From NCBI GenBank assembly GCA_019096065.1, contig JAGUCH010000004.1, forward strand, positions 7,564,001 through 7,628,000: 64,000 nt of DNA, written 5' to 3'. The position numbers and the translations under genes were made by a program. Below are positions 3,057 to 58,300 of the stretch, piece after piece. Under the pieces are notes generated by a model. That model did not search any database. It was not told the origin of the DNA and worked only from the letters and a program-made list of their open reading frames with translations. Every line of letters starts with the position of its first letter. Position 1 is the first letter of the stretch. The DNA comes from Paracyclopina nana (Eukaryota; Arthropoda; Copepoda; Cyclopoida; Cyclopettidae).

Positions 3057-6000
3057 TTTGCCAATCACCTTTTTTTCTGGTAGGTTTTTTTTCAACAAAA
3101 TTCAGAGTTCATAGCATATTCCAACTACCTTTAGTTTGGGCTCTAAAAATCCTAATAAAGTTGGATTTTAGCAGAGACAGACTCTAATATTTGATAAATG
3201 GCAAAAGTCGACTTTTTTTGCATCAGACTCAATGACAAAAAGTGGGTTTCCCAACTTTTGACAATCCATTGAATGATAAAGCATTACATGGGGAAACTGC
3301 CATATATTACTATGAAAACGGAAACATCTGCAACAAATCACAGCCTAGAGAATGATGAAAAAAAGAAGAAGGGATGAAGATTACAGCCAAGAAGAAAAAA
3401 GATCAAAGTAGCAGATAAAAGCTTTCCAATTTTGCAAGTCATAAAAATGATGACACTTTTGATCTTCTTCTCTCTAAACAAATTGGACAGATTTTGGCCC
3501 TAATCCCAAACTTTATTAATTGGCTCTTAGCAAGGGAAAAGATGGTCAATTATCATCCTTCTTTGGCCAATTTATTTTTCAATTTTGAAAATGGCTAAAT
3601 TCAATTGGGTTTTCAGCGAAAGTTTTATTGGTAATTCTCATGGAGGAAAAGTTCATGCTGCTTTGGATACTTTGGAGGAAAGTTCGGTTCTGCTCTGCTG
3701 TACTAAAGCGAGAAGAAACCCAATATATTTGAGACATTTCCATTCTTTTACAACCCTTGTAGCAGGGGAAAGTAGCTTGACCAGAAGCTTTTTCATACAG
3801 GAATGTTAGAAAAACCAAATTACTACATTGCCCAGCTCTATGTATTGAGCTGTATTCTTACTACAGGAAATACTTATTTACAAATTGCCTTATGTACTTA
3901 AAAATTTGTGAAACACTACTTTTATAGTATTTTTTTTCTATTTTTTGTGCCTAAAGATGACGAAATAATAATTATCATACTTTGATTTAAATACAGATGA
4001 ATACTTCTTGCAGGAAAAATACAACTTTCCAGCTTTAGCAAAAAATTGGGAAATACGAATTACAAAAAAACAATAAAAAAGCATGTGTTGAAGCGAAATA
4101 GAAACCTTGCATTGTATTGACATTTAAATAATTTTAAGGTATTGATGCTAAAAAAGTAATCACCAACTTGATTAGCTGTATCCCAAGTGCAATACAAATA
4201 CAATAACAAGATCTACTTCAATACAATCATAAATCAATTGTAAATCGTTCAACTAATGTAAAAAGTTACTTTCTTAGGAAGAAAAATTGCCAGTGAGTCC
4301 AGATTTCCCAAAAGTGTAGCTGTGCTGATTTTGAGCCTAACTAACCAAATGTAATACCAAATGTATTGAGTTTCTCCCAAGAGACATCTCCATTAAACCT
4401 TTCCTTTTTAGGTCCAAAAATGAAGGAGGCAAAATTAGCTTCTCATTTGGAATGGCAAAGCATGCATTCACACCCAAATACATGAGAGTGAGAAGAAAGT
4501 ACATAAATTACCCTGTGGTTTGCCAAATAACCAATAGCCCCATTAATTATGATGAAGCCCAAACTAGATAATCTTGTGGCTTGTCAAGAACCAAAAAAAA
4601 GTTTTCCTCTATTGTAGTTTCCCTCATTATTTCGCCACTGGCATCACAAAATGGTATGTTGTACCAAAAATACTGCCATGGCCAAAACAAAGAAAGTTAA
4701 CTTTGCAGAGATAACCAAGAGATTTGGCAAAGCTCCACAGCACAGAGTAGAAAGAAGCATTATTTGCTTGTGAAAAACAGCCTAAATCTAGCTGAAGTTG
4801 AGCATAAGCAAAATACAGTAAGATAAATGTACTGGTACATTTTAGAGGAATGTTCTCATAAGACAACTTTTTTGATATATGATACCAAAATACAGCTGGT
4901 AAAATAAAGTGGGCTTGAACATTACTTCAATTTAGCAAATGTATTCATTGAACTTGAATTAATAACATTTTACCTCACCTAATAACATCAAATATTAAAA
5001 TACAGAATGGCAATCTAGGTATAGATTCAAATACAATTTACATAAAGTATTCAAGATAGGTAAAGTAAATGTAATAGTTTAAAAAGTCCTTCACTAGGTA
5101 AAAAGCCAAATTAAGCCTTACCACTTCTGAGCTGAATACAGTTTCAAGCTGGAATATGCTATGAAAATGAGGCTGTATCTTACAAGTTGGAATATTCTGG
5201 TGTATACAAATATGTAATGTATTATTATACCAGAGGCTTGACGTAAACTAACTGAGGGTTCTCTAAACGGATCCTGTTGCTGCTAAAGCGCCTCCTTTTT
5301 GAGCCTCGAGGAGACGGATCTGTACTGAGACAGGCTCGACTCCAACATGAAAGCGAGGCATTGCTGCTGACGTGGCTCTCTTCTACTTTTCAACTTTGCC
5401 ATTTTATATTTGGAGCGGAGTTAACTAAGATCCCGTTCATGTGCAAAGTTGCTTTTCCGAAAGTAAAAAATTGTCATAAGGCAACGGAGTTTTGCCAACG
5501 AAACACTTCAGAAGGGCTTCTCAACTAGTTTAACCAGGAATCGAGTCTACAAATTTAGGGCAAAATTCTGAAAAACTTTGATTATTTCAGCTGCGTCTGA
5601 AGTATGTAATAACTCTGTAATTTTTGAGTTGGTTCATATAAATTTGTGTGATACATATAGCAGAAGTAACCAGTTTGGCACTGAAGTTGAAATAAACTTT
5701 GAGTGTTTTCTTTTCAATAGTCTTAAAATTGACGCGTTTTTTCCCAAAGTATTAGCATCAGCAGAAATTTACTTTTGTGTTTGTCAGATAAGATATTTTT
5801 TCTCCTTTCCGTAAGGTTTCAAAGCATAGAGGGCAAAAGGTCAGTTGAAAATTGCTATTTGCAATTAAACATTTTTTTAAAGCCAAAAAGTGCTTTTTTT
5901 GCCATAAAAATGGCCAATAAAAATTATCAGCAAATTTGAATTAAATTAAGTTAATTTTCTGTTAGTGACTTTTTAAAAGCATTAAGTTTTATATAAATAA

Positions 6001-7905: not shown

Positions 7906-10900
7906 CTTCTTTGTCTTCTCTCCATTGCCATTGGTGATTGAAGAAGCAGACATGGTTGATGAGCATGTACTCGAAGCTGTGGAAGCATTCGAGTTGGACC
8001 CTTTCAAAGCTGGCTTTGAAGGCTGCAATGAAGGCCGAGAATAGCCCATGAGCTGGAGCAAGGCCTCGGCCGCGGCCCTTTTGGCCAATTTCTTATTTGG
8101 TCCACTTCCTTGAGCGCTTTGACCCGCGGCACTGACCTGGAAAGAAGCATATCATATGCACATCTCATTACAGCTGCCAATGTATGTATTTCATGACTCA
8201 GCTCGAAAGTGATGAGACCGATTGAATTTTGCTGCTTAGATCATATACACACAGATTCCATCATCTTTTCAGAAGGATTTGCACACAAATCCGCTTTACT
8301 CTAACCAAATTCAAAGCCCGGATACATATTTTGTACGCAGAGGGAAAATATTTATTGAGGGAGCAAAATACATCTGAATACATTATGCCAATTATTAGAC
8401 TTTTTTAAAAGGATACATAAGTGTATTTTTATTTTTGTCGTAACTATTTTTTCTTGCTTAAAGTTGTTCAATTGCACTTTCATCATTCTTTCAAGATTAC
8501 AATACAAGTTGTACTTTTCAATATGCAGATGTATCCGGATACTTTTTGGCTGGAAAAATACATCTCATGTGAAATTCAAACTAGAAATAGTATCCAAAAG
8601 CATTAGTATCAAAAGAATACATTTCAATTAGTTGAGCAGCTCTCTCATGCGGATACATAGATGTATCCGAATACTTTTTCTGCCTGTAAGCTCTTCCAAG
8701 AGTGAGTGTATCCAAAAAAGGAGGTGAAAATAGATGGGTCAGACAGCTCCAACTGACAGATAGACTAAGATTTAACTTGAGAACTACTCCAGTACGAAAA
8801 AGGAAGGAAAGTATTCTCCCCAACATTGTAATAAGGCCTTGAAAACGTATTTTTTCCTTCAAAAATCAACTGGAACAACTGATAATCTATTTTTCATGTT
8901 TTTATGGACTTTTCCCTTCTCTTAATGCTTACATTTCCCATCTACAATTTGAGGGTTATTCCTTCCTCCTCTCAAAGCTACCGGAGATTTAATTTTCTTC
9001 TCTTGCATACGTGAGTGTATTTTACATTTGCATTTGTATTGAAAATGCTTCTAAATCTCTCTCTCTCCTCGAGAAGCTCTCGAGTTAGAGGGAAGGTCGA
9101 TTCAGCTGAACAAATATGGAAATGATGTAGCTGTTTTACCTCAAAAACTAACTTTCCACAATATTTGCCTAGGAATAAAAACTAAGCTGATTTCAATTTT
9201 GGCGAGCTCAATACAATCATCTGATTTTGATGTGAGTGAGCTGATTTTAATAGTGGTCAGCTGATTTCATTTACATTTCAATTTCAGCGAAGTGACCTCA
9301 ATTTGAGTAAGTTAGGTCATTTTTTGACACTAGACTTCAATTTTTATAAACTGATTTCAATTTTTTTGACTTATCAATCAAATGCATCAAAAGAAATCTT
9401 GCTGCAAAAAGGTAGCAACAATCAGTTTCTTTCCCAAGGTGGTCAGTTTAAAAGCTGAAAGGGCCTAAAAATGACCAAGTACTTTTTGTGGACTGTTTGT
9501 GGCTGCAGAGTTGCCATAATTTATAGGGCTCTTCTACACATCTGGAAATTGAAGTGTCACTAGTTTTTTGCCAGAGCTAGCATCCTCTTTTCTCTCAGAG
9601 GATGTTCTTGCATCATTTTTCAATGCCAGATAAATTTCTGGACCTACTTTAAGGGATCCTTGGGGAGAGTTAACCAAAATATGTCAGCATTTGATGCAGA
9701 TGAAAGCAGTGCTTTCTTTTTTCTGTATTGTCAGCCAATCTAATTCAGCAGCATCAAAAGCACAGTAAGCATAGTTTGCACACCTCTTCCACTTTTGAGT
9801 GTTTTTGCAGTTACAACACCAAAAAGTACTCATGTTTTATTTGCTTAGCAAGATCAAAGGACAAAAAGGCAAAAAGGAAGCATTTTCCAACTTTGGGCAA
9901 ATAAAAGCCACTGACTGAATCAAAATTCTCAGATGCAAAGTAATTACACATTGTAATAAATAGCCACATTAGCCTTGACATGATTTACCTGTAAAAGGCC
10001 TGAGAGAGCCATAAATTGAAAGCTTTTCAGAGTAACCAAGCCATTAATTTTGCTGAAAATTGCACAAACAAAATACTGGCAAGTCTTACTATTTTGCATG
10101 ACATGAAAAAAGTTGGTGATTTCCTCAGGGAAAAAAGTGTGTAACCAAAGTGGAATTTTTGGGGGTTGGCCAATCCATCAAGACTTGGCTTGGGCTTTTG
10201 GCAGCATTTCAATCAATTTCATTTTTGCTCCTTAAGTGATCCAGTGTGCTTGAATATGCAGTCCAATTGGCAGCAGTTGAAGTATCATGAAAACTGAGCT
10301 CCCCTTGAGACTGCTATTATTGGTAGCTTTGCTGTGACAAACTACTCATTGTGGCCTTGTGCATGACTGCTACTAGTGTCATGCACAGGACCACACAATG
10401 TAATAATGGATCCACAATATTCTTCTTTCACAGTTGGTGGCCAACCTCAGTGCAGGCAACAGTGATCCATCACAAGGTAAAAGGTTACATGATTAGGGTG
10501 TTCATCTACTGCTATAGTCATTCAAAAATCTTGATGCAAAGCAATTTGAGCCTCCTTGATGCAAATTCAGTTTGGGCAAATGAAAGTGTACTTTTAAGAG
10601 CACAATCAAGATGCATTTGTTTAGGAAAGATTATGATCAATACTACAAATAAGCTAAACTATAAAGTAGTTGACCACCACACTAGTATTGACAACTGAGA
10701 ATGCCTACATCAAGGACTCTTGCAGATACACTCAGCCAACTGTAAGGAATACAGCCATTATTTCTGGTAAGAATTCATGCCTGTAATATATGGCAATTCA
10801 CCTTCCTCCTCATTTACCTAGATCCTTGAGGCCATTTTCCACCTAAATTAATTCCTTTGACAGCAAAAGCCTCATCATAGGGCTCTTTTTGGTCCAATAA

Positions 10901-13900
10901 TTTTACTGCCACACCAACTATTGGCTAAACATTCCCCACTGCTCTACTGATATCTAAAAAGGGGTTAGAGTGCAAGAAATAGAATGGTAATAACAGAGCA
11001 ATAAAACCTTCCATATATAGCATTCTCAGAATGGAGTGGAAGAAAAGCCTTCTTCTTTTAGCCTAATAATGGGAAGATTAGTGCAAGTTAGTCCCACAGT
11101 GTCTTGGCCTCCAAATGAGCCCAAAAGACCACAAAGTGGGGCCCAGAGGAGTCTGATGAAAAGGAGGCTGAAATTAGAGGCCAAAAGAAGATTTGTTTCC
11201 AGCCACTTGTGGGGCATTCCTGGGCCTGCTTCTAAGATGGATTACCAAGTTTTGAGGTAGTACAACAACCAAATACAACACTGAGACCACTTAGCACTTT
11301 ATTAGAAAGACTGTTGCAAGCCCTTTCAGCTGCCACACTAACTATTGTTATGGCCTCAAAGATGGATGAGACCCAGCCATGCAATCATAAATACAACCCT
11401 TATTACTGTTACACATTTAAAATTTGCCAATACATTTTCTCAGTTGCTGTATTTTCCTAGCTGAACAGCTGAGCCTATTCAGCTGCAGCAGGAGAAAGAC
11501 AGGATATTTATCTTGCTCTACAACAACACCAACTAGTCTAAGGCCCCAATTTGCATTCTAAAAGCATTGGATGCAAATTAGTAAGCCAGATAGCAACTTT
11601 TTACTCTTCTTTATGTAATGCAACTGTATTTTCCTTAATGGACTAAATCTTACTTTTAAGAGTCAGAAAGTTGAGGCTATTAAGAGAGAGTTCTCTCTTT
11701 TTTTCGGGCCAAAGTGGATGTGAAAAAAGTTTCTCCCTCAGGTCATGGCAAAGCCCTCAGAAGAGTTGTTCAGGTGAAGAGCCAGAGTTGAACCCCTTCA
11801 TCATCCTGGATGAGTATGACATAGCTGCCAACATGGACAGGTGCTGCAATAACTCTTTTGGAAGGACTGCCAGACAATTTGTATGGCATACAGGCATGCA
11901 TGGCCTTAAATATTTGGTATTTTGTCGCAAACACCTTGGGGAGAGGATGTTATGGGCAATTGTCAGCCTCCTGGCTGCCATTACTGCCCTCTATTTGGCC
12001 TCCATGGCTTGGATACACTTTCACCAAGAGCCTACCATTATTCACCTCTCAAAGGCAAGCAAAAATTCATTAATTTTGTATTAGGAATTCTGTGGGCTAT
12101 CAACAACAAGAATTTCCTTTCTTGCTTGATTTCAGTTTTGCAAACTGAAAACTTAGTGAATTGATTATGAATACAAAATGCTCAATAAAGCCTCTTTAGC
12201 TTGATATTAGATTTGACTTAAGTGCTTTGCTATAAAAGTAATCTCAAGCTATCCTACAGCAACAATTCTCAAATGGCTTGTAGTTGCTTGCTAAAGCTAA
12301 TTATGCTAGTTTTTATGATCCTATGATAATTTTCCTTGCTGCAACCAAATATGGGAATTAGCCTTTTATGGTAATGTGCTTTTTCATTCAGCTTAATGCA
12401 GCTACACCAACTAGCTAACTAATGGTGTGAGCAGTATTTTCAGACCTTCTAAAATGATGGGGATTTGAAACAGCTTCGTTTCAAAAGATTTATCCATTGA
12501 AAAAGGCCAACTGCTACTTTTTCTGGCTCTTTCAATATTAAAGCCATTCATCTGGTTTCTCTGAGATATACATAAAAGGAAATAGTTCATGCAAATCCCA
12601 AGAGAATGAGGCTTGGATTTTTATTTCATAGGTTGGCCTTCAAGCTCAAGAATTGGCCTTTCCAGACATCACTGTGTGCAGCCAACCACTAAATTCACTA
12701 TCAAACCTTTCCCTGGCCGATCAGGCCCGCATAGAAAAACTATTGAGCCCCATGAAGACCATTCCTCACATGTGGGATGTGTGGCTGGACTTTATCAACC
12801 CTTTGACACAGCCAACAGCCTTTAATTTATTCGAAAACAACTTTGCAAAGTCCTCAGTGAAGGCCCTACTGCAGCAAATTATAATTGAGGCCGTTTTGGC
12901 AGTGGCGCCATCTTGTGAGGAATCTATACAATTCCTTGAAGGTAAGCCAACGGAGGAACAAACTATTTTGTTAGATGGCGCTTTTCAAGCCAATATTTTG
13001 GGCTAAAGTGAGTTTGTGAAACTTGTCACATCATAGAACAGCAATATCAAATGTGTGAAAGAGCCAAGATGATAAAAAATGCTAGAATTTACAATAAAAT
13101 AGCGTTTAGATTTTCTCTAGTTGTCAATACTTAAAAGTATTTAAAAATTGTTTATTTTGGATTGTATCGTACTTTTGAAGTTTTAATCTAAATTACATCC
13201 AAAGACCTACATAACGAATTTGTAATCACCTCTGCTGTGCAGCTATGTCAAATAAACTAGGCAAAGTTGCCAGCTGAGATGGTTCAGTGAGTTAAAGTAT
13301 TTTATATACTGTAATACGATTTCCTCGTGTTATAATTCAGTTTACCGATCCGACTCAGCTCTTTTATATCACAGTTCTTTCTAAGCAATTTGGGGGATAT
13401 TAAATACTTAACAGCCCTTGAATCAAATTTGAGGGATTTTAAGTAATTTTATATACTGTAATACGATTTCCTCGTGTTATAATTCAGTTTACCGATCCGA
13501 CTCAGCTCTTTTATATCACAGTTCTTTCTAGGCAATTTGGGGGATATTAAATTCTCAACGGCCCTGGAATCAAATTCGAGGGATTTTAAGTAGTTTAATG
13601 CCCCTCACATTCCATGGAACTAATCAAAATTCCAAAGTTAGAAAAAAGAGAGAATCATCCAAGATTTGAACCTCAAACAGTTGGATTATCATTCCAATGC
13701 TCTAACCACTGAGCTATGGAAACACCATGAAAATTGCATGCTTATAGGACTTAAACATAATTTAAGCCAGATAAAGAAACTAAAAAAATCAAGGCATGAC
13801 TGGGGTTTGAACCCTAGACTGCGAGATCAAGAGCCAAGCGCTCTAACCACTATGCCATAGGTACAACTCACAAGCAATGTATTTTTAAAATCTCTTTTAT

Positions 13901-16900
13901 TGCTCTCAAACCACTGGATGCTAGCTGACAAGAGCCAGTGATACATAGCATAAAAACCGAGCAGCATTTTCTAGGGCATGGGGCAGCCCGGTAACTTCAT
14001 TAAAACACTCGAATATCGTATTACAGTATATAAAATTGTATATTTCGAGCTGGGGCACATAAAGTAGGGTCATTAAATAGCTGACCTCGGAATTTAAAAT
14101 GGAAAAACACTCGTACAATTACAGCCCTCGCAGGCTCGGGCCAGTAAAGCTGTACTCGAGTTTTCCCATTTTAAAATCCTCGCTCAGCTATTTAATGACC
14201 CTACTTTATGTGCCCCAGCTCGAAATAAATAACTATAATGCCCCTCATATTCCATGGAAGTAATGCAAATTCCAAAGAAGTTGGAAAAAAGAGAGGATCA
14301 TCCAGATTCGAACCTCAGACAGTTGGATTAGCATCCCAATTATCTTTATTCAGCAGTCTAGGGTTCAAACCCTAGTCATTCCTCAACTTTTTTTTCTTTA
14401 TCTGGCTTAAGTTATCCTTAACTCCTGTACATAGCATGCAATTTTCATGATGTTTCCATAGCTCAGTGGTTAGAGTATTGGAATGCTGATCCGACTTTCT
14501 GAGGTTTAAATTTAGGATGACCCTCTCTTTTTCCATCTTATTTGGAATTTGGATTACTTCAATCGAATCTGAGGGGCATTAAATTACTTAAAATCCCTCA
14601 AATTCGATTCCAGGGCCATTAAGTATTTAATTTCCCCCAAATTGCTGAGAAAGAACTGTGATATAAAAGAGCTGAGTCGGATCGGTAAACTGAATTATAA
14701 CACGAGCAAATCGTATTACAGTATATAAAATTGTATATTCCGAGCTGGGGCACGTAAAATTGGGTCATTAAATAGCTGACCTCGGATTTAAAAATGGAAA
14801 AACACTCGTACAATTACAGCCCTCGCAGGCTCGGGCTAGTAAAGCTGTACTCGAGTTTTCCCATTTTAAAATCCTCGCTCAGCTATTTAATGACCCTACT
14901 TTACGTGCCCCAGCTCGAAATAAATAACTATGAAATGACGCCACTCACTAAAAATAATCAAGTGTCCAACAACTACAACTTGTCAGCCTACTTTTGATAG
15001 GAATGACATCAACACTCAATGCAATCAGAGGAATTGAAACTCATTCCTCGTGACAAATAGAGGTGATGCACACACACAGACAGACAAAACTGCATCAGCA
15101 GCAAGTTTGGCACTAAATGCATCACTTTTGAAATTTCCTTGGGAAAATTATTGGCATCTGACCTTTATAGCCTTCAACAACAATTCCTATGCACACAGAA
15201 GCGTGCTTAAGCTAGACTGAGCACGAAAAGGCCATAATTTATATGCCTTCATGCTAGCATCAACATTGCATTATTATTATGCCTCTCCTAGAGGTCTAAA
15301 TCTGATAAGAAAGGATATGCACTAATCTAGATAAAGATAATTAGTTCAGGCAATGCCCGCCACTTCATTAGATGGCGCCACCGCTAAGTGTTTCAAGATT
15401 ATTAAGGGACTGAATTTTTTTCTGCAGTTTTTGGCCTTTTTAAAGAGCAACCGACTAAATACTTTAAAGCTAATTTGAAGCGCCATCTAGGTTGGCAACT
15501 TAGCCTAGTTTATTTGACGTAGCTGCCCAGCATTGGTGTACTCAAATTCGCTACTTAGGTCTTTCGATGAAATAAAGCGAAAAACTTCACGAATATGACA
15601 AAATATATAACCAAAACAATCATCTGGGCAAACACAAGTTATCATATTTTGATTTTTTGTCATTTTTAAAAATTATTTGATGCCGAGATCGAAATAGATC
15701 CCCTTTCACTCAATCAAAATTGCTGCTGATGTCACGAAATGAGACTTTCAAAACTCAGAATTCCCCAAAATATTTGCTTGTAAAGCGCCATCTTACAAAA
15801 TAGTTTGTGACACCAATGACCAAAATGCTATTAGGCAAGTTGCCGATCTCTGGTATCTAGGCATCTAGCCATATCCCTTTACTTATTTACTCACTTATAA
15901 TAGTGGAAGTACCATAGTACACATTTTCCCTGAGACGGGCCGTGAAAAACAGGGGATCAATACATGGCAAGACTTTTTCCTAGTGAGCTCACTCATGCAT
16001 AAGAGTGAACCTCCCATTCACATTAAAAATGCAATCATCCAGTGTACCAACTGCAGCTAAGTAGAAGTGTTTTCTCCCACAGAATAATGCTTATCTTATT
16101 AGGTATTTCCTAGGAGCTTTTTTTTATAGCTCACCCTTTAAAGCAGGAAAATTTGATAAAATGGATCATGAGTGAAATGTACATTAAAAAATCCTAGTGA
16201 ATTAAGGGGGAAATCTCTGGGAAATCTTAATACACTGAATTTTTCATATTGTGATGAGATTGTAGTACACTGAGATGACAAGTGAGCTAAGAAGAAATCT
16301 CAGCAAACTCAGAAGGAATCTAATTATGAAAACTGAGAAGAAGTACTAGAAACTGACAAGAAATCGTAGTAAACTAATAGAAAATCTTAGCAAGCTAGAT
16401 GGCAATTTTAGCAAAGTGAAAGCTCACATCTAAACTGAGCTCCAATATGACATCAGTGGTTTCAAAAAAGCCTTAAATTATCAGAACACAAATAAGTCTT
16501 TAAACACATCCATTCAGGTAATTTTGTCCAACCTCAGCAAAATCTTAGATTAAAAGTACACACTTGGAAGGAGGTAGCACAAAATTCCAAAAAGCAAGGG
16601 AAGTGGGAAGTTTGCATAATTCTGGCTAAATAGTACACATTCTATAGAGAAGCAAGGGATGTGCACTGTGCCAAAAAAGCCAGTAGTAGCAGTAGTTGTG
16701 CAAAGAGTTAAACCTACACAAAAGATGCACTTAAGCAAAGAGAGTAATCCAGAGAAGAAGAAAAAAACTTTCTTTTTATCATCCTTGCTTGTTAGAAAAA
16801 GAAAGTCTTTGGGTTTGCTACCAGCACTATTAGAAAGCTCAATTACTGCTCTTTTTTCAAGTAAAACAAGAAGTTCCTCTAATTGTCCCTAGAGACACTA

Positions 16901-19900
16901 AATGGAGGGAAAGTTAAAAAGAGTGAAATCAAGCCCCAAAAAAACCTTCAACATTTGCAGGTTTTCCACACTGTGATGGCCAAGGAGGCAACAGCAAATG
17001 CTGTCAACAAGCCCAAGTAATTTTGAGTGACTTGGGCATTTGCTACACAATAAGCCCTAAAGATATTGCATCAAGGTAAGGACTGCTCCTATAAAAGAGA
17101 GTCCATTAATGAATTAAATAATTCCAGGCAGCCACCTCAGAATAAACATGGCCTTATTGGTCAACAAAAAGGCCTTGGGCATTATATGGCCAAAGCCAAA
17201 AAGGACCTGGAGATCAACATGACTTTGACTGGAGCAACTAGTGGATTTGTGGGATTGCCCACACTTAATAGCACCCTATGGAAAAATGTTCAATTATGCT
17301 CCAGTAGTTGGGAAGATGTGAAGGATGCAAATGTGCTTTGCAGATCCTTGGGTCATTTTGGAGGGGGACAAAGGTAAACAACAATAATAATAGTTTAACA
17401 AGTTTTGTTGGCACTTCCAATCATGGCTTCCCTTTCACAAGAAATTGGAAAGTCAGTGGAAAGTCAACTCCTGATGCCTTTTGTGTTTTGATCATGTCAA
17501 CAAGCAAAATGATCATTATCAGTTTGATTTCAGCTTTTAACACACAAAGCATACTAGCAATAACAATTAAGTCTGATAAGTTTTTAATAATCTGGTAAAA
17601 AAGTATACTTACCGAGAGAACTTGAATAAAAGGTGCATAAAATAATACAACAATGAACTATGATGGTTACAAGTAGATAAGCATAATAAAAGTGCTGCTG
17701 TGTGATAAACTAGTCATGCTCTCTGAAAAGAATATCCCTTTTTCCCAACCTTACATCTCCCAGGATTCTCATATATAAACCCTTCTAAATGCTCTTTGAA
17801 CATGATACAGCAGGAAAAAATACCACCAGGCATTTCACAAACTTTTTTGGGTGGCCAGCATAAGTAGAGGTAGCTGGGTCAATATTTGCTTAAACTTCAG
17901 ACTCATTACTGCTTTCCCATTATGCAGCTACAGCAATGTAGTGCCTTATTTGCAGCCTCTACCCCCAAGAGGGTCTAGCAGCAGGCAGCTCATTAGATCT
18001 GGAAGTTGGCAACTTGCTAGGCAAAAAGCTCAACTGCCAGGGGACAGAACATCATTTCCTAGACTGCCCCTCCAATTTCCATGGCATCAGTGGGACAACC
18101 TTGAGCCAATGCACAACCTCAACCCAGGTGCTTTTGTTGTGTAATCCTGCAGCTCTACTTTCCTCCTCATCTTCTCATCAAATCACCACCACACTCAAAG
18201 GAAACCCATACATTATGATTGATGTGGAGGTGAGCATTTATTGGAAACTGACGCCGTCTGGCAAAAGTTGAAACCCACAGTTGTTTGTTCTCACAGGATG
18301 ACCAAAGAGGCTATTTTTGTGATGATAATAGCTCTTTTGGGGAAGCAGAGGCCAAAGTCTTTTGTAGAATGCTGGGATGGCCAACAGGGAAAAAACTGGG
18401 AACCAAAACTCCAATAGGGAGCAGAAGGCTGGCCCCAAATAGGGTCATCTCAAGTGTTGCATGCAAAGGAGATGAATTGCACATTTCAGATTGTGACAAC
18501 ACTGTCATTTCAAAGGTACAACTAAAATTTCTTCACCCCACAAGTTTTTGCTAGAAGAAAATAATGTAAATTGGCTAGCAGCAAAAAAATCCTCTTTTCC
18601 ACTCAAGTGTGACACTTTGGTTGACCTGGAATGTGGCCCAGGATTTCCCCTGACTTTAAGGCTGGAAAATCCAATCCAGGAAGACTTGGCTTCAGTCTCA
18701 GCCTTTGGCCACCCAGTGGTAGATACAACTGGGACCGTGGGTTACATTTGCAACACACACATTGGCCCAGCAGTGCCTAATGTCATGTGCAAAATGCTGG
18801 GATTTCACCATGGAAGAATTCTCGATGGCCTTACTTTTGACCAACCCAAACACTCAGATACACTTGTGTATGTCTTTGACAAAATTGACTGTCAGGGAGA
18901 TGAAGCATCTGTGTTTGAGTGCTACCTGGGACCATGGCTTCTAGGGTAACTAATGAAAAAGCTAATCAAAACAAAATGAACAAAAAATTGAACAAGCCCA
19001 AGTCTATCTAGGCCCAATGCACAACATTTTTCTTGCAAATTAACTAAAAATTAAACCCGAAGACTCAGACACAATCAGCTTTTCATTCAGATTTATGAGC
19101 GTGTTGCACAAATTCTTGCAATATGTTTGAGCTGAAATTAAATAACCATCAATCATGATAAGAAAGAGGCTTTCCTTAGCCAGAATATATGCAATAAAAT
19201 ATCAATAGCTCTTGGACATAGCAGCTGAGTTAAAAAATGTTAAACCAATGCATAACATGTATTTTGGTATGCAGTGTGCCAAACAGAAGATGCAACCAAA
19301 CCCTTACAATTGCTTGCTCAGAGAGCTCTACAGGGCTGGACCTTTCCCCAGTGCTACTGAAAATGAATGAGAATGACCAACTGTTCAAGCCTTCATCGCC
19401 AGAAAAGTGTGGATTAGCAGCCCTGAAAACAGGTCAAAGCATGACCTACACACCTTTCTGTAAATCCAGCCAAGCTTTTGGCTTTGATGATGATGAAGCC
19501 TTTGGATTATGCAAATCACTTGGGTTTCCTTGTGGCATGGAAAGTAGGCAGCCCCAAATAAACATATCATCAACATTTGATAACTTGGGGTAAGCAGAAA
19601 AATAATCTTGATTTATGAGTTGTCCCCCCAACTTTTTCTTACAGTAATACTCCTAGAGCAAAACTTTTGTTCTTTTCCCTTTTTGTGAGGATCTACTACA
19701 TGGCATTACTGTTGTACATCTTGGTGAAAGCTGTGCTAGAATCACAATTTTTTCCCTTTTTCTTCCAACCTAAGCTACCATACCATGGCTGTAGTAAAAG
19801 CTCCTGGAGCTCAGACTTTGACTTACATTTCATTGAGTGAGAGTGCAGGTTTTTTTGCAATCACAAAAAGGGGGCTTTCATGATGATCATGCAGAACAGC

Positions 19901-22900
19901 AGTAATTTTCCCTGAAATTGATGTGTGTGAGGTAGTGGAGAAAAAGGAACTTTTTTCACTAGCAGCAAGATGTTGAGTAAGTAGTAGTAAAATACATAGT
20001 TCCTTCTGTCTCCTGTAAAGTAATTGGAAAGCCTCAAAGTACAAGAGCAGAGTAGGAGGGGGGAAATTGAGGTGGTACACATTCTGCTTTTATTTCCCCC
20101 AGATCTGGACTGAAAAGAGGAGTTTTTGTGAGCCTTAAATGTGGCAATAGCAGCACTTGTGATTCATTTGAGCTCCAGCTGACAACCAAATGTGATTCTC
20201 AAGATGCATGGGTGGTCAGTTGTGTGGACTCTTCTGACCAAGAAGACTATGAAGCATGCCAACTTTTGCATGAGAAGCAAGATGCTAATCAAGAGACTGA
20301 TAAAGTCACTCTCCTCATAGAGACTGGCCAAGAGAAGTCAGTGCAAATCACATTAGGCCAAGGCATTCAGAGCTTGACTCTAAATGGCCACAGTGAAAAC
20401 ACAGTGGATTTGACAGTGACAGGAAGTGCCATTGAAACAAGAGGGAGAGCCTTGGACTTTTGCTACCAGCAGCACAAAGATTTGCTGCAATGCCATGCTG
20501 AATGCCAGGCCAACTTCCAGCTCCAACTTTGTGGATGTTTGCCTTGGTTTCACTCCAGGTAGGTTGATGGATCCAACTTCACTCTTATGCCATATAGCTA
20601 GGCTCTTGCTTTCTTAATAATTCATAGCAGTCATCTCAGCACTTTTATTTAATATACTCTTCCTCCAACTTGACACTACTTTTATGGGCTCTAAAAATAC
20701 ATTTATATCTAGCCTTGAAGGGCGTCTTATTGAGACATTAACCTTGACAAATCAAGTATCAAAACCATTGACACTTGATTGTCATCCTTCAGTTTGGTTT
20801 TCAGTCTCAAATACTGACACTAAAAAGCAAATGCAAAAATTTTCTAAGCTGCAAGATTTTCAAGTGCTTTTTCAAATATGTTCAAAGTTGGCAAAGTGAA
20901 ATTGGCACAAAAAATTCAATATCATCCATTCTCACACTTCTTAGCATGAGAATGGATATTCATTTAGGCATGGGAAATCATCAATATGTTTGTATATCTA
21001 TTTATCACTTAACCTTGTGATGGAGGTAGAAGAAAAAAAAGAGAACCTAACCTAAATGTGATGACGTCAGCCCACTTTATCCCTGCCAAGGCTCATCACT
21101 ATCAAAGCCATCACCACAACACACACACAACTTAAAGGCCTGCTCTCTCTTGTCTTAGCAAGTGAAATATTGCCTTGTTGTTGTTATACTAACACACTTT
21201 AAAAAAGGATATTTTGTGTGTTTTCTTTTCATCTTCTTCCTGGTCTTGCAGTAATTCTTTTTTGCCTTACTTTCACAGAGTCCTGCTTTACAAGATCAAA
21301 GAGGAAGACAATATTTGCATTGGCCAAATGAGGAACAAGTGCTACAAAGACTTGAAGGCTGCTGCCAGCATGGCTTGTGAAAACTTTTCGCTGGCTCTTA
21401 GCCTTGCTCAGAAGAAAGGCTACTCAATGCCATCTGCAGTTAGAGAAAGTGCAGCAGTAGCTAGGAGCCTCTGTGAAAAGTGCATATCTATGAAGTTGCC
21501 CTGCAATGGCCTCATTGATTATCACTTCAATTCTCTGGATAGAATTGACTCTGAAGGACCCCAACTTTCTCTGGCATTGATGCAGATTGCCAAATTGGCC
21601 CCTAGTTCACAGCAAGCCATGGAAGATCTTGTGGAAACACTGAAGAATCACAATACTTCAACCAAAGTCAAGCTGAACATTTCTCTGGACAGGAAGTCTT
21701 CAGTGATGTATCAAAGAAGTCTGGTCATTCAGTATGAATTGCTACTCGGTTGCATTGGTGGCATCCTAGCCATTTTCAATGGATTCAGTTTCATTGTCAT
21801 CATTGAATTCATCTATTTTTTCACAGTGAGATGGTATGAAGACAAGAAAAGCCCTTTGCTCCATCCAAGCAAAAATAAGGCCCTGTTTCAGTTTGACCCA
21901 AAATTGCCAAGATCTAACAGTGATCCAGACCTAAAGTGAGCTCTTTAAGATTATTTAAAGAATTCATTATTCAAATCATCAATTTAAATTCCAGGACTCT
22001 CAAGGATAAAAGAAGAGAAGAAATGCAGAATCCCATTAAAATAGACAAAGCTGTTGTTGACATTACCAATGAGATGTCCAAGGTGATTCCTAGCCCCAAA
22101 AAGCCAGAAGCTAACCAAGGCAAGTCTATTTTGTCGAAGAAATCCTCGACACCTTCTTCGAAATCATCGAAGAAAGTCAACATATCAACAAGACCCAAAT
22201 CTAGTTCAGTTGCAAGGAAGAAATAAAAAAGAAGGCTGACCTGCATGACAAATTCCCTCCTTCTTGGCATCCCCCTTTCCGCAATGAGTGTGTAGACTGG
22301 CTCCTTTTGCTTCCTGGCTTGCTGGATCTGGATCAACCTGGAGATGGGGTTGATGCTTTGACCATAATCCGGATTGGCCTTTTGATCCAACTTGATGAGG
22401 TTCTTGCTCTTCTTTTTGGCCACTGTGCTGGATGATCCAGATGAGGATTGGTTCGAAGACTTCTTCTTGGGCTGAGGCTGACAACTGGCCAAGGGTGGCA
22501 GTTCTCGCAGCTTCTCGAGCATCATTTCTGCAGCCCTTGTCTTTGAAGTCTTCTTCCCATTTCCTTCTCCCTCAGTGACAAAGTCACCAACCATGCACCT
22601 AAAAAGACATGAAAATACAATTACATTTATGTACTCATTTGACATATCTAAGTTGTGATTCAACCTTGTGAGGAAGGTTCGCATGTGCGGAGGACCAGTT
22701 TCACGAGCAACTTCAAACTTCACCGTCATGTTTCGCTTGAGAGCATTTTCATGAACCAAACTGATGGGTGATTTCAGCTCAGAGTAGATTTGATCAGCCA
22801 AGTTTTGCTGCTCATGTTTGCTTGAAGCAGCGGCAGCAGCTGACACCTTGGGAGCTTTAGCTGGTATTGTTGCTGACAAATGTGTTGCTGCCATGGTTGA

Positions 22901-24903
22901 AGAAGAAGCAGACGAAGAAGATGTCGAAGAGGGTGAAGTCATCACTGACGACTTGGGAACAAAGGGAACTGAAGCTGGATTCAGATTAGACTTGATCATA
23001 GGTGTGGATCCTGATGATGTTGGTGGCGCAGCTGAGGTCATCACGGTTGAGGTGGTTGGAGAAGATCGACTTGGCATTGGAATTTCCTTGAAAGAACCAT
23101 ACGTCACTTTAAGTCATAATTTGATTCAGCCAAGAGTGTACGTACCTTTAATTTGAGTAATGCATTTGTTGCTGCTGAATGTTTGGCAGCTTGAGCAGAA
23201 GATCCTTCACCCGTGACCTCAACAGAGCCAACTGTGAGACGCACTCGAAAAACTGGACTCGTTCCGGAAGGACCTTTAAACTGTTGGTGATACCTTTGGT
23301 TGTACATTCCCCGATAGTTGAGTGCATTGGCTCCAGAGGCAATTTGCTGCCCCTGAGGCCTCACTGTGTCCAAAAAGGTGTACACAGTGGGTTCTCCACG
23401 TTTCATGGCCAAAGCGTTCAATTCCACCGTGGGAGTAACATTGGCTGAAAAAGTCATCAATGAAGCCAGGCTTTACTGCACAGGAGAGAATCAAAACATT
23501 GGCGAGAACAAGTTAGCTCAGTATTCCTTCAATGTACTTTGGTGGAAGCCATTGTGCATCGGGTCTACTATTAAGTCATGCATAATTCCAGCAGAGTACA
23601 CCAATGATCAAACTTGATGTCACAAATGTTTTGATTCTCCCATGTGCAGACATAGGTGCCAATGTCATTACTATTTTTGACTAGCCGGCTCTTGGGCGGT
23701 GGATGCTTCAGACTGGTCTTTTCCAGAGCAATTGCTGCAGCTGCATGTTGGGCCTTCTTGATCGAAGGTCCAGATGCGTTGAACTCCTCAACATCTCCCA
23801 ACTTGAGACACACCGTGAATGTCTTTTTGTGAGCTGGTCCCGACTCATCGGTCAACCTGTACTGGTGCTGGATCTTGTTGTAACGAGCAAGCTCATTGAT
23901 CAAGCACATGGGAGTTTTCTCTGAGAAGAAAATTGATAACATTGAAAAATTACTGCTGCTGATGATGATCAATTTTGTATCTTGTTCACCTTTGGCAGGA
24001 CCCGAGGAGTCCTCAACTTGAGTTGTAGAAGTGATGGTGGTCGTGGCTGGATTAGCATTGGTACTTGTCATGACCAAAGATCCAGGAGCTGCTACGGTGT
24101 AGGCCATCAAAGGCTGAGGGCCAAGATTGACGTTCAATCCAGAATTGGGAGCAATGGCAGCAGTCACCTTATCAGGAGGTGCCTTTCGCTTGCTTACGAT
24201 GGCCTTGTTCAAAGGCTGCTGCTGTTGATCAGAAGCTTGCAATTGCTTCTTGTTCACTGGAGGTGGTTTTGGGGCTCGAGGTTTGAATTGTTGATGCTGA
24301 GGCAACTGCTGCTGTCCACCATGGTGATGATGTTGGTGGTGGTGATGGTGCCCATGATGATGAGACATGGGTGGTGGAGGTCCAGCATGATGCTGGTGAT
24401 GTTGGTGGATTTCTGAGTTTCCGTTGATTGATCGAGTGATTCTGCAACAAGAGAGTGTTCACTCTAAGCTTATCGAAAGCGATCAATGTCGAAAAACACA
24501 TGTTCAAAGTTGTCGTTAGAAACAAGACCAAGCAAGGTTGGGGAGTGATTACCATCAAATGAGAGGTAATCAAGCAGAGGAGTTTCCCATGATGAGATAC
24601 TTACGGAGGCTGGTGATGAATGACATGCTGTATGTGCATGTGGGGGCCTCCAGGGGGCGGGGCCATTTGCGGGGCGTGGCTATTCATCACTCCCCCAGTG
24701 GGAATGGGCGGGGGCATGGACAGCATGACAGGTGGGGGTGGCATGGGAATGCCATGATGATGATGGGCCATTCGGGCCCCTCCTCCCGCCATGCCCTGAG
24801 GGGGCGGAGGGGGCGGGGCCGAGTTGGTGGAGGAGGAGCTTGACACCACCGGAAGTCGATGAAGATGTGGCACTGGCGCCGCCATGGTGTGATGGAGTGG
24901 CAT
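7906..24903 (-). CDS. Staufen, double-stranded RNA-binding protein (3' end outside window)
   Basis: Cytoplasmic RNA-transport and localisation protein. Seven coding exons join in phase: 24903-24605, 24441-23990, 23920-23672, 23444-23146, 23086-22665, 22598-22241 and 8136-7906, giving 770 codons with the last exon ending at a donor. Four dsRBDs follow the fly order. dsRBD1 starts [14 protein letters not shown]. dsRBD2 starts [19 protein letters not shown] and is interrupted by a loop, as in fly Staufen. dsRBD3 starts [14 protein letters not shown] and ends with a [15 protein letters not shown] helix. dsRBD4 is split over the 14.1 kb intron, REFVMQ joining [20 protein letters not shown]. The N-terminus is low complexity, rich in Pro, Gln and His ([14 protein letters not shown]). 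dsRBD5 is not visible. I chose the ATG at 24903; one at 24885 in the same frame has a better context. The long intron encloses the channel gene on the other strand. Confidence 0.95.
8137..11029. other. Intron sequence between Staufen and the channel
   Basis: This is Staufen intron and the upstream flank of the nested channel gene. It holds repeated GTATCCGAATACTTTT-like and GATACATA motifs at 8400-8690 and a degenerate run of TGATTTCAATTTT units at 9185-9370. I see no convincing coding exon. The true first exon and promoter of the channel should lie here, because the first channel exon I recognise starts at an acceptor. Confidence 0.5.
11030..22226 (+). CDS. DEG/ENaC (pickpocket-like) channel with SRCR-like repeats in its extracellular region
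   Basis: Amiloride-sensitive-type sodium channel subunit of the plasma membrane. Twelve exons join in phase: 11030-11256, 11742-12054, 12632-12941, 16961-17075, 17128-17373, 17956-18229, 18297-18515, 18608-18945, 19275-19589, 20103-20558, 21279-21935 and 21995-22226, about 1,233 residues; the start codon is probably in an unseen upstream exon. Order: cytosolic N-terminus with the HG gating motif (MHGLKYLV), TM1 ([20 protein letters not shown]), the [10 protein letters not shown] motif after TM1, LGICYTI, then SRCR-like repeats ([10 protein letters not shown] with [24 protein letters not shown] with [21 protein letters not shown] with [13 protein letters not shown]; a weaker one with [13 protein letters not shown]), then the cysteine thumb (CGCLPWF) and TM2 with a G-x-S filter (NGFSF). 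The tail is Lys/Ser-rich. The intron after 12054 uses a GC donor. The split at 18515-18608 is my least certain junction. Confidence 0.85.
13655..13733 (-). repeat. tRNA-like module (anticodon position GAT) in copy A
   Basis: The minus strand reads an A box (TAGCTCAGTGGTTAGAGC), a 5-bp anticodon stem TTGGA/TCCAA around loop ATGATAA, and a B box (GAGGTTCAAATC). The acceptor stem pairs only partly, so it is tRNA-derived rather than a working tRNA gene. The same module in the other copies has GCT at the anticodon position. Confidence 0.65.
13796..13865 (-). repeat. tRNA-like module (anticodon position CTT, Lys-like) in copy A
   Basis: The minus strand has A-box-like GGCATAGTGGTTAGAGC, loop CTCTTGA and a perfect T-arm with B box (TAGGGTTCAAACCCCA). 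The anticodon stem is mismatched here, but pairs well in the 50.7 kb copy. Probably a tRNA-Lys-derived module. Confidence 0.65.
14044..14225. repeat. Foldback palindrome A
   Basis: Starts TTCGAGCTGGGGCACATAAA and ends with its inverse (ATGTGCCCCAGCTCGAA). The arms include GGTCATTAAATAGCTGA. The loop contains CCCTCGCAGGCTCGGG. It abuts the end of tRNA element copy A with only about 10 bases between (AATTGTATA), the same junction as in the other two copies. Confidence 0.85.
14236..14735. mobile_element. tRNA-bearing terminal-repeat element, copy B (rearranged)
   Basis: It shares the body and the ATCGTATTACAGTATATAAA end with copies A and C. On its left half the minus-strand GCT-type module (about 14305-14345) breaks off and joins the 3' half of the Lys-type module read on the plus strand (about 14352-14383), so the copy has an internal inversion or template switch. 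A complete GCT-type module follows at 14451-14522 on the plus strand. Confidence 0.65.
14740..14919. repeat. Foldback palindrome B
   Basis: A second, nearly identical copy of the 14.04-14.22 kb palindrome (CCGAGCTGGGGCACGTAAAA to ACGTGCCCCAGCTCGAA). It adjoins the end of element copy B with the same spacer. Confidence 0.85.
15368..15494. repeat. Short inverted-repeat element
   Basis: TTAGATGGCGCCACC at the left and GCGCCATCTAGG at the right are inverted. The inner bases TTTCAAG and TTTGAAG also pair. The TAGATGGCGC core matches the ends of the large surrounding transposon, so this may be an internally deleted relative that inserted into it or a rearranged piece of it. Confidence 0.55.
15816..16960. 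other. Rest of channel intron, with degenerate tandem repeat
   Basis: Between about 16200 and 16430 units of roughly 20-25 bases related to AAATCTTAGCAAACTGAGA recur with heavy divergence. The remainder is AT-rich intron with no gene signal until the acceptor at 16960. Confidence 0.5.
17374..21278 (+). other. Longer introns of the channel gene
   Basis: Introns at 17374-17955, 18946-19274, 19590-20102 and 20559-21278 exceed 300 bases. I see no nested gene, tRNA or clear repeat in them. Several acceptors lie behind decoy AG sites, for example at 17930 and 21251. I chose the site that keeps the frame. Confidence 0.5.
22222..22227 (+). terminator. Poly(A) signal overlapping the channel stop codon
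   Basis: AATAAA at 22222-22227 includes the TAA stop at 22224-22226. Cleavage 10-30 bases further on would lie at about 22240-22260, inside the antisense Staufen exon that ends at 22241. It is the only close signal I see, but a later one could be used. Confidence 0.5.
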
Positions 24904-55329: not shown

Positions 55330-58300
55330 TTAACTATGCTACGTTACTTTTGAGCTCTAGATATCAGCCTTCGCCGCTGCACTCCTCCTCTGCAAACAAG
55401 GCCCCCGACTTACCACCCAGCGGCGGTGCTTTCAAGGCCCACAGCAGCAATTGTGGAGGATCTAGATGCGCAGGGGGCTCTGGGCTGCTCGCCTCAGGAA
55501 GGCTCCTGGCCGGGGCCCCGAGAACGCGGCTGCTGTTCCCGCCGATATGCAAGTAATGATGCTTCCGCTCATGCAAGGGCTCAAGGCCCAGCGCCAGGCC
55601 GACCTCCATACCCAAAAACAGGGAGTAGAGCTGCTCTGGCTGGAGGCTGGGACCTGCCATTTGGAAGCCAAGGCAGCAGCTGTCCAATCTTGGCAGAAAT
55701 GCAAGCTAGGAAGTTTGAGGACACTGAGGCCGATAAGTGGCTCACATCCCACCTACCTGTCGAGGCTACCTTCTTGGGGTTGCAAGCAACAAAGGCGACC
55801 AAGAATATGGAAACCAAGCACGCCTTGGTAGGCATGGCACTGCAAACGGTCAATGAGGTTGACCTCTACGCCTTGACAATGAGGCTTTCACCTTCATACA
55901 CCTGCTAGACGTGTAAGCCATGGTTACCTCATCTCAGGCGGCTCACATTGTGCTGGAAACCGCCCAGCAGTGGTCTGACCAGGCCATCCCTCAGTGGCAT
56001 GCCGCCTGTGGAGCATCCTTGTGAGGGCCAGGCCCTAACTCGCCCTGGACCTCGTACGCATCTTGTCATTAAGATGTACAGGAAGGACGTAGTGGCGGGC
56101 ATCTTGGGGCACAAGTTGCCACCATGGTTGAGGCCCTAGAGGCGGCTTGCCAGGCAGAGTATTTGTTGTCCATTGGGCTGGGCAAAGGCCAAGTCTCCGC
56201 TATGCTCTTGTCTGATGCCGACACCAAAATTATCTGCTACTACTGAAAGAGGAAGGGTCATTGGTAAGCCGAATGCCGGGCCCTTGACCGGGACGAGCCC
56301 AACAAACACTACAACCCCAAAACCAACAAATGGTACCGGGCTGAGAGCCAGCAGCAACAACGGTCCTCGGCATGCAAGAGCGCTCCATCTCAAATATTGT
56401 ATTGAGGGTGACCGCAAGCCAGGACTCAGCCTCAGACCACCAACAACCAGCAACCCCAGGGTCAACGAGATTTGTGAAGCAAGGCCCAAGGGCGAGGCAG
56501 AGCCCACGTGGGCCACGCTGGCAGGAAACAACTGACCCGGTTGTAGAGGGTTCTGACCGAGCCTCTCTAATATCCCTCCTGCTAGCTGCCCTTGATCACA
56601 TCACCGAACATAAACAATTTTACAGCACGGGTACCTGTGCGTATTGGCTGGATCAAGACCCGTGCCCTAGTTGACAGCGGCCATAGCTGGCATACCTGCA
56701 TTTCTGAGGCCTTAGCCCAATGCTTTGGGGTCCTGCCACACAACCTATGGCCCCTCTGCGACATGACCGTGGTGGGCACTGCCCACAAGCGGCACCGGCC
56801 GCAAGTGTTGGGAGAGCTCGGACAGCCCCTGAGAGTCCAGATCGGAAAGCACCCTCATATGTTCTCTATCCGGCCCACGGTAGTACACAGCCGTCCATAG
56901 ACTTCAACATGTGTGGGCCTTTCCAGAGCCATCATCACATCAATAAGCTTCATTCTCAAGGTGCCCTCCAGATCCATGCCAAGTACCTCCCGATTGTCGG
57001 AGCCTTGCACGACGCTGCTGACACCCCAACCATGGAATCTGCCATCCATGTGACATGACCCACTACGGTCCCACGGTGCACCGCGGTCCTGGTTGCAGCC
57101 GTCGCGACCCAGTGGCCCCATGGGAAGGCCAAGTAAGCAGCGCCCGAAGCTGAGGCCAGTTGCTGAGGAGACCCAGCTGGCTCCTTGGCCATGCGTAGTG
57201 GGTCAGCCAGCCGCAGGAGGACACCTGATGGTGAATTGTCAAACAAGCTGGATTACTCTCTGCAGGTGAAAGGAGGTGTTTGCTACGGCACCCTCCGGGA
57301 GTATGTGCCTCCGGCCGTCGGCCCTACAAGGGTCCAGAGCCGCAAGTACAAGCTATCCACCCCGACGGGACGTGGAGGGCCAGCCCTACAAGGGACCACC
57401 TCCCGATGCTGGCCCGCAAGAGAAAATTGAGTTTGCCATACGGGCCTACAAGCTGGAAGAAAACGACCTCATCCGGAGGGACCCTGGGCAGTTGAAGGCC
57501 GCTGCCTCACTCCTCACTGCGTATCTAGGGGCCTTATCCTTCGACGGTCGTTCTGGCCAGACCAAGCTGGTAGAACACGCCATCGACCTCAAGCCTGTAA
57601 CCAGGCCAATCAATATTCATCTACGCCAATCAATCCCAGCATGGAAGCCTCTTTAAAGGAGAAGACCCAAAAGGGGTTGGACAAGAGGTCGTCACCCCAA
57701 CCTCCTTTCTGTGGTCCACCCCACAAGTCCACATCCGGAAAAAGGGACGGGAGCCTCCTGCCGTGCCTGGATTATCGCGAGCTCAACAAGGCCACTGTTG
57801 CCGAATCCAACCCGATCGAGGATGTTCGGGATAATCTGAGCCAATTGGCCGCTCTACCGTCTTCTCCACCCTGGACGCTGTCAAGCCCTTCAATGTGGTG
57901 CCCATCCAGCCTGGGGACATGGAGGAGACCACCTTCTCAATCAGAGATGGCTCCCACCCTTTTCTGAAGATGCCATGTGGGCTCACCAATGCCCCCAAGA
58001 CTTACAGCCGGCTCTAATGCCTAGTACTAGAGGGAGTGTCATGGGAGATGTAGCTCTTCCAAACTTGGACGATTGCCTGGTCTACTCCCCTGACTTTTAG
58101 TCACACCTTCACAACCTGCGGGTCGTGCTGCAAGACCACCAAAAGGCCGGCCTACTGCTTGAGCTGTCCAAGTGCCACGTGTTCCAGACCCAAGTAAGCT
58201 ATTCGGGGCATGTTGTCACGCCCAAGGGACTGGAGGTCGTGCCAGCCTACGTCGACCTGATCTGCAAATGGCCCTTGCCAACACCCGCAAGCTATTGAAA

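Follow-up and report, generated by a model that had tools for sequence, protein, structure and literature searches.

Can a DEG/ENaC channel subunit carry scavenger-receptor domains within its own ectodomain, and what might such domains do to the pore? This question is raised by a locus of the copepod Paracyclopina nana, situated within a stretch of 64,000 nucleotides (positions 7,564,001 to 7,628,000 of the forward strand of contig JAGUCH010000004.1, assembly GCA_019096065.1; hereafter "the window", from whose first letter positions are counted). A first-pass annotation of this DNA had proposed a single gene whose two channel portions enclose SRCR-like repeats. Touch and acid sensing, the taste of salt and currents gated by peptides rely on DEG/ENaC channels as pores; the subunits of these channels assemble as trimers, and palm and beta-ball couple changes of the ectodomain to the pore. 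Judged from the sequence, we consider it highly probable that the proposed architecture, a DEG/ENaC channel with SRCR repeats inside its ectodomain encoded by one gene, is real, since Pfam matches, reading frame, intron phases, codon usage and an exon in which the fourth repeat ends and the thumb motif is found all point to it. That the product is a pickpocket-like DEG/ENaC sodium-channel subunit with four inserted SRCR domains in its ectodomain is a reading towards which we lean, if only modestly.

Rebuilt from the raw sequence, the gene comprises twelve exons on the + strand (11069-22226) which encode 1220 amino acids with no internal stop and with consistent intron phases, so that the earlier claim of one frame maintained through twelve exons is borne out. 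The span of 11030 to 22226 given in the first-pass annotation is correct with regard to its end while its start had to be revised: translation from the ATG at 11031 reaches a stop after 11 codons, which rules out this start and leaves 11069 as the in-frame one. Exon borders, and with them all splice joins, were deduced from splice signals and reading frame. Ten introns are of the GT-AG type and one (intron 2) is of the GC-AG type; intron 4, which separates the exon containing LGICYTI from that in which SRCR1 starts, measures 52 nucleotides. In a six-frame codon-usage test, whose training set of nine long open frames from this genome itself includes DEG/ENaC or SRCR genes, the frame of the model ranks first in 11 of the 12 exons, the exception being exon 12, which encodes the cytoplasmic tail. 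Exon 1, including its deduced start codon, is the exon least supported by domains. An AATAAA hexamer at 22222-22227 overlaps the stop codon of the channel gene, and no AATAAA or ATTAAA located wholly inside 22227-23000 was found on the + strand.

Both ends of the predicted protein are recognised as parts of a DEG/ENaC channel. The Pfam family ASC (PF00858) matches the full protein with an E-value of 1.4e-35 (123.6 bits; cut-off 23.6) in two non-overlapping stretches which lie, in the proper order, around the matches to SRCR (PF00530; 3.9e-22, 78.9 bits, cut-off 26.1, three stretches). In the spliced translation PF00858 thus flanks PF00530 in two pieces, just as had been anticipated. The best ASC stretch, residues 111-329, corresponds to profile positions 3-209, while the C-terminal 360 residues, scored alone, match positions 298-455. 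All landmarks listed in the first-pass annotation are present in the translation, namely HG (residues 116-117), FPDITVC (177-183), LGICYTI (295-301), CGCLPWF (916-922) and the GxS filter in the form of GFS (1093-1095). The first transmembrane helix (TM1), the thumb cysteines, the glycines and the glutamate of the second transmembrane helix (TM2) and the pore signature are likewise retained. LGICYTI corresponds to a palm strand in solved relatives, and the terms finger and palm follow the naming of these structures. A third Pfam listing for the full protein, PHD_like, is far below its cut-off (E-value 0.14), and no EGF family is found among the Pfam matches of the full protein at E-values up to 10. 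Among structures in the PDB, the N-terminal half matches best to pickpocket (PPK) chains (9pzn, E-value 2.7e-7). With insect PPK26 (PDB 9pzn), as an example of this group, the predicted protein shares HG, TM1, FPxxTVC, the GxC palm strand, the CGC cysteine thumb and the GxS filter of TM2. Yet the PPK26 chain consists of 597 residues compared to 1220 in our model, and it is absent from the PDB matches listed for the SRCR block.

Between LGICYTI and the cysteine thumb, where about four SRCR-like repeats had been suspected, three repeats exceed the Pfam cut-off when scored individually (Table 1) and a fourth, divergent one scores above all of 2000 shuffles of itself. Against a profile built from SRCR stretches of the same genome (8 of the 18 other stretches, 10 having been left out as short or interrupted by a stop) SRCR4 reaches 11.9 bits, the best of 2000 shuffles reaching 9.6 bits; upon addition of repeats 1-3 to the profile the corresponding values are 15.9 and 10.2 bits. 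SRCR domains are divided into group A with six and group B with eight cysteines in conserved order, and by count the predicted repeats 1 to 4 contain 6, 6, 6 and 8 cysteines. The best PDB matches of the SRCR block are LOXL2 (5.5e-6), MARCO (0.0011) and SCARA5 (0.0018), all further ones having E-values above 0.02. With LOXL2, MARCO, SCARA5, MAC-2 binding protein and DMBT1 the array has the SRCR signature and the cysteine order in common; these are receptors, enzymes or secreted proteins, and none of them is known to be a channel subunit. A GDE following a later cysteine is found in SRCR2 and SRCR3.

Does the model describe one gene, or did our choice of exons link two or three adjacent genes, one for a broken channel and another for an SRCR protein? 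Every splice join is deduced from sequence, intron 3, about 4 kb in length, is filled with repeats, and exon 12 does not represent the best frame in the codon-usage test, all of which would suit such a merger. Against it, however, exon 10 lies in one open reading frame (20071-20562) which, with no splicing required, contains both the end of SRCR4 (FVSLKC...) and the start of the thumb. This is the strongest argument from the genomic sequence, yet, SRCR4 being the divergent repeat, it carries no further than the shuffle test described above. Moreover, intron 4 is just 52 nucleotides long, each half of the channel would be useless by itself, and the phases over 11 introns hold one frame throughout. 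Weighing these points, we judge the two-gene reading unlikely, and a merger of two or three genes in general very unlikely. Within the one gene so favoured, the array is located after LGICYTI and before the cysteine thumb. As the first Pfam channel half extends to residue 329, a strand equivalent to GLTILL of other channels may precede SRCR1. Residues 817-890, following SRCR4, resemble the remaining strands by eye.

Several observations speak against the reading as a pickpocket-like subunit with four inserted SRCR domains or qualify it. ASC profile positions 210-297 remain without a match, and the best PDB match of the C-terminal half, again 9pzn, is weak (E-value 2.2e-4 for the whole, 0.13 for the best single stretch). 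A profile of ten sister-channel segments recognises residues 895-924 but not 817-890, for which reason palm and ball may be altered and we claim the position of the array no more finely than "between LGICYTI and thumb". SRCR4, scored alone, matches no Pfam family at E-values up to 10. The CDD motif after the first cysteine, whose letters belong to the cation site in SRCR domains that bind ligands, is kept in SRCR2 only. Exon 8, folded alone and without alignment, yielded a poor model (mean predicted local distance difference test score 41.9) which was not used for a fold search. Finally, no relatives were found in a large protein set, be it with the full-length protein (7967 candidates, E-value 0.001), with residues 480-690 (350 candidates, E-value 10) or with residues 100-310 (764 candidates, E-value 10), although this set may contain few animal proteins and the absence of relatives is weak evidence of rarity. 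Two of these points, the stretch after SRCR4 missed by the sister-channel profile and the Pfam gap at positions 210-297, would fit a real gene fusion with a product that has lost conduction and serves as a display scaffold or regulatory subunit, presenting SRCR domains on a channel-derived anchor. Such a loss of conduction would, however, have spared TM1, HG, FPDITVC, the thumb cysteines, the TM2 glycines, the GFS filter and the TM2 glutamate, and ASC profile positions 298-455 are covered by Pfam. We therefore regard a non-conducting product as improbable, and continue to prefer a channel subunit.

Table 1. Predicted features of the channel gene and of the overlapping Staufen-like gene (window coordinates).
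Feature	Position	Strand	Content and support
Exon 1	11069..11256	+	Cytoplasmic N-terminus, residues 1-62; open frame, GT donor, codon usage best of 6 frames; no domain
Exon 2	11742..12054	+	HG motif, TM1 (~11944-12012), GC donor; Pfam ASC from residue 111; codon usage
Exon 3	12632..12941	+	FPDITVC, finger start; Pfam, PDB match
Exon 4	16961..17075	+	Finger end, LGICYTI; Pfam, PDB match
Exon 5	17128..17373	+	Linker after LGICYTI, first half of SRCR1; frame, Pfam
Exon 6	17956..18229	+	Remaining half of SRCR1, beginning of SRCR2; frame, Pfam
Exon 7	18297..18515	+	Bulk of SRCR2; frame, Pfam; own-genome PF00530 match 18300-18512
Exon 8	18608..18945	+	End of SRCR2, most of SRCR3; frame, Pfam; own-genome PF00530 match 18725-18937
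Exon 9	19275..19589	+	Final part of SRCR3, first half of SRCR4; frame, shuffle test
Exon 10	20103..20558	+	End of SRCR4, channel stretch before thumb, thumb start CGCLPWF; single open reading frame 20071-20562
Exon 11	21279..21935	+	Thumb, palm, TM2 with GFS filter (TM2 ~21736-21825); Pfam ASC profile 298-455, PDB match
Exon 12	21995..22226	+	Basic, serine-rich cytoplasmic tail and stop; not best frame in codon test
SRCR1	17219..18151	+	Residues 340-456; 6 Cys; 34.6 bits alone (cut-off 26.1); split by intron 5
SRCR2	18191..18640	+	Residues 470-566; 6 Cys; 35.7 bits alone
SRCR3	18656..19323	+	Residues 572-684; 6 Cys; 35.4 bits alone
SRCR4	19339..20232	+	Residues 690-816; divergent, 8 Cys; exceeds 2000 shuffles of itself
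Staufen-like gene	7906-24458	-	dsRBD matches (Pfam profile)
Predicted Staufen intron, 14104 nucleotides	8137..22240	-	Donor and acceptor in phase; dsRBD matches on both sides

Is this gene a single case within the genome? Scored exon by exon, ASC yields at least 122 matches in the 92-Mb genome of ten contigs, partly in tandem clusters; this count is a lower bound, as 93 of 463 candidates were scored, and the channel gene at 11069-22226 is not among the matches. By these matches, the predicted DEG/ENaC family of this genome is a large one. SRCR, for which all 27 candidates were scored, gives 20 matches; two of these lie in the window and correspond to exons 7 and 8. None of the other 18 is located within 10 kb of an ASC match from that lower-bound list, and thus no second SRCR channel was found in this way. 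A tblastn search of the model against 32 loci returned partial matches to the channel or to SRCR and no locus with both. The 18 motif matches from a scan of 16 stretches at 8 SRCR loci include 4 to SRCR and one believable TM2. The latter, a DEG/ENaC TM2-like stretch (GGTLGLLLGLSFMSFLDAMMW) at about position 5891 on the - strand of locus L020, lies about 5 kb from SRCR matches on the opposite strand.

Modules of another kind are present in channel relatives. DEG/ENaC genes with LNR/Notch modules were recognised at L005, L008, L038 and L039 (C4:9.0-9.2 Mb and C8:6.04-6.06 Mb), i.e. in at least 4 of 15 ASC loci that were read frame by frame, these 15 not being a random sample. At L008, LNR is matched by four open frames that follow one another after GFCCSFN (17.4, 19.6, 24.1 and 16.2 bits), one of the four passing the cut-off of 21.2 bits, and at L005 three frames reach 21.8, 20.6 and 22.3 bits, two of them passing. 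A fourth frame at L005 starts in an LNR-like manner, and LNR does not appear among its Pfam matches. In L038 and L039, LNR-like stretches precede the GLTLLL strand within the same frames. Across the genome, the search for LNR produced 38 matches (150 of 437 candidates scored); three above the cut-off fall inside L038/L039 and one into the channel cluster on C4 (C4:9081050). As in the gene described here, the modules of L005 and L008 are placed in the ectodomain after the GxCxxFN motif. The four sister channels differ from it in that they carry LNR/Notch instead of SRCR modules and that LNR stands before the GLT(I/L)LL strand, whereas in the present gene a possible remnant of GLT(I/L)LL precedes SRCR1. 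The sister channels have their LNR modules in the corresponding part of the ectodomain, so this part appears to tolerate insertions. For the finger region of the DEG/ENaC genes L002 and L003 (C9:3.85 Mb) a resemblance to the end of a C-type lectin had been considered by eye (YCVKAW...C...YLCY); no Pfam lectin family matches at E-values up to 1, and we do not claim it. A possible mosaic membrane protein was noticed at L023-L024 (C2:2421149-2426217, + strand), where one scored SRCR and others seen by eye, three scored LNRs and many more seen by eye, and a transmembrane-like stretch occur; no channel motif was seen there.

The entire channel gene lies antisense inside the predicted intron of a Staufen-like gene (Table 1), its stop being 14 nucleotides away from a Staufen exon. 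Matches to dsRBD above the cut-off are found at 23571-24458 (2.4e-12), 23104-23472 (3.7e-8) and 22241-23113 (6.1e-12), while the exon at 7906-8136 contains half a motif (profile positions 44-65, E-value 0.0013, 19.7 bits) below the cut-off of 23 bits. The exon ending at 22241 provides a GT donor and that starting at 8136 an AG acceptor, both in phase, and by eye their junction completes a dsRBD (with REFVMQ beside the join). Intron 3 of the channel gene contains direct and inverted repeats combined into one composite structure (13161-15604), with arms of up to 192 nucleotides that are 92% complementary. Elsewhere in the window, G+C content climbs to 0.48-0.54 between 52000 and 64000; an open reading frame at 57431-57967 contains LDYRELNKATV, which in our view resembles a retroelement reverse transcriptase motif, and has no Pfam match at an E-value of 0.01. 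ARAGORN detected no tRNA in the window.

With respect to published work, the first-pass annotation knew of no DEG/ENaC channel with scavenger-receptor domains. This holds within the literature searched: no description of an ENaC, degenerin, pickpocket, amiloride-sensitive or acid-sensing channel with SRCR was found in the titles and starts of abstracts covered, most subscription journals lying outside this coverage, and within the same coverage no DEG/ENaC channel with an LNR or Notch repeat is described. In PMC10507113 the words "SRCR" and "scavenger" occur 0 times. The nearest precedent within the literature searched is provided by the EGAS channels of C. elegans, whose name is given as "EGF plus ASC" (PMC10424705); in them, as here, a second type of extracellular module is built into a DEG/ENaC channel, these modules being EGF in EGAS and SRCR in the present gene. 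In the study of PMC10424705, currents of EGAS channels did not differ significantly from those of controls; PMC6868747 just names egas-1 among ion channel genes. DEG/ENaC proteins with a second module are therefore already known, while SRCR, and likewise LNR, appear to be new within the literature searched.

What, then, might the array do? If the subunit trimerises like its relatives, up to twelve SRCR domains would be arranged above palm and beta-ball. The array could bind an extracellular partner, be it a protein of the matrix, the cuticle or another cell surface, or else, as the first-pass annotation had proposed, a polyanionic or microbial ligand. Binding of this partner or tension on the array would shift the adjacent palm strand and thereby bias the pore. 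That the array serves for binding or as a tether, and in this way acts on gating, is, on present sequence evidence, about as likely as not. Provided that it does, a soluble or microbial ligand instead of a fixed tether would be conceivable, at somewhat less than even chances. We consider a role in force transmission or tethering as likely as the recognition of a soluble ligand because of the LNR modules in the sister channels. In Notch, LNR modules act as force-sensitive covers. Taken as a distinct explanation, the array would be a mechanical tether to cuticle or matrix and not a receptor for a soluble ligand, and a pull on it would open the pore as in other DEG/ENaC mechanosensors. This possibility, which we regard as less likely than not, draws on the corresponding ectodomain position of the LNR modules in sister channels, on their force sensitivity in Notch and on the fact that DEG/ENaC includes touch channels; yet the folds of LNR and SRCR differ and need not share a role.

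How events in the ectodomain are relayed to the pore has long been asked of DEG/ENaC channels, and a channel from nature whose palm bears a foldable binding array would offer a direct test bed. With polyanions or microbes as ligands of the array, pattern recognition and ion flow would be linked in one polypeptide. The LNR-bearing sister channels suggest a general region of insertion and not a single accident. We tentatively put forward, as a proposal less likely than not, that a lineage-wide slot after the GxCYTF palm strand takes up recognition or force modules, namely SRCR in the present gene, LNR arrays in the sister clusters and possibly lectin-like modules (seen by eye, with no Pfam support). 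If this were true, the animal would possess a repertoire of channels gated by interchangeable extracellular sensors, a class of receptor-channels not described in the literature searched.

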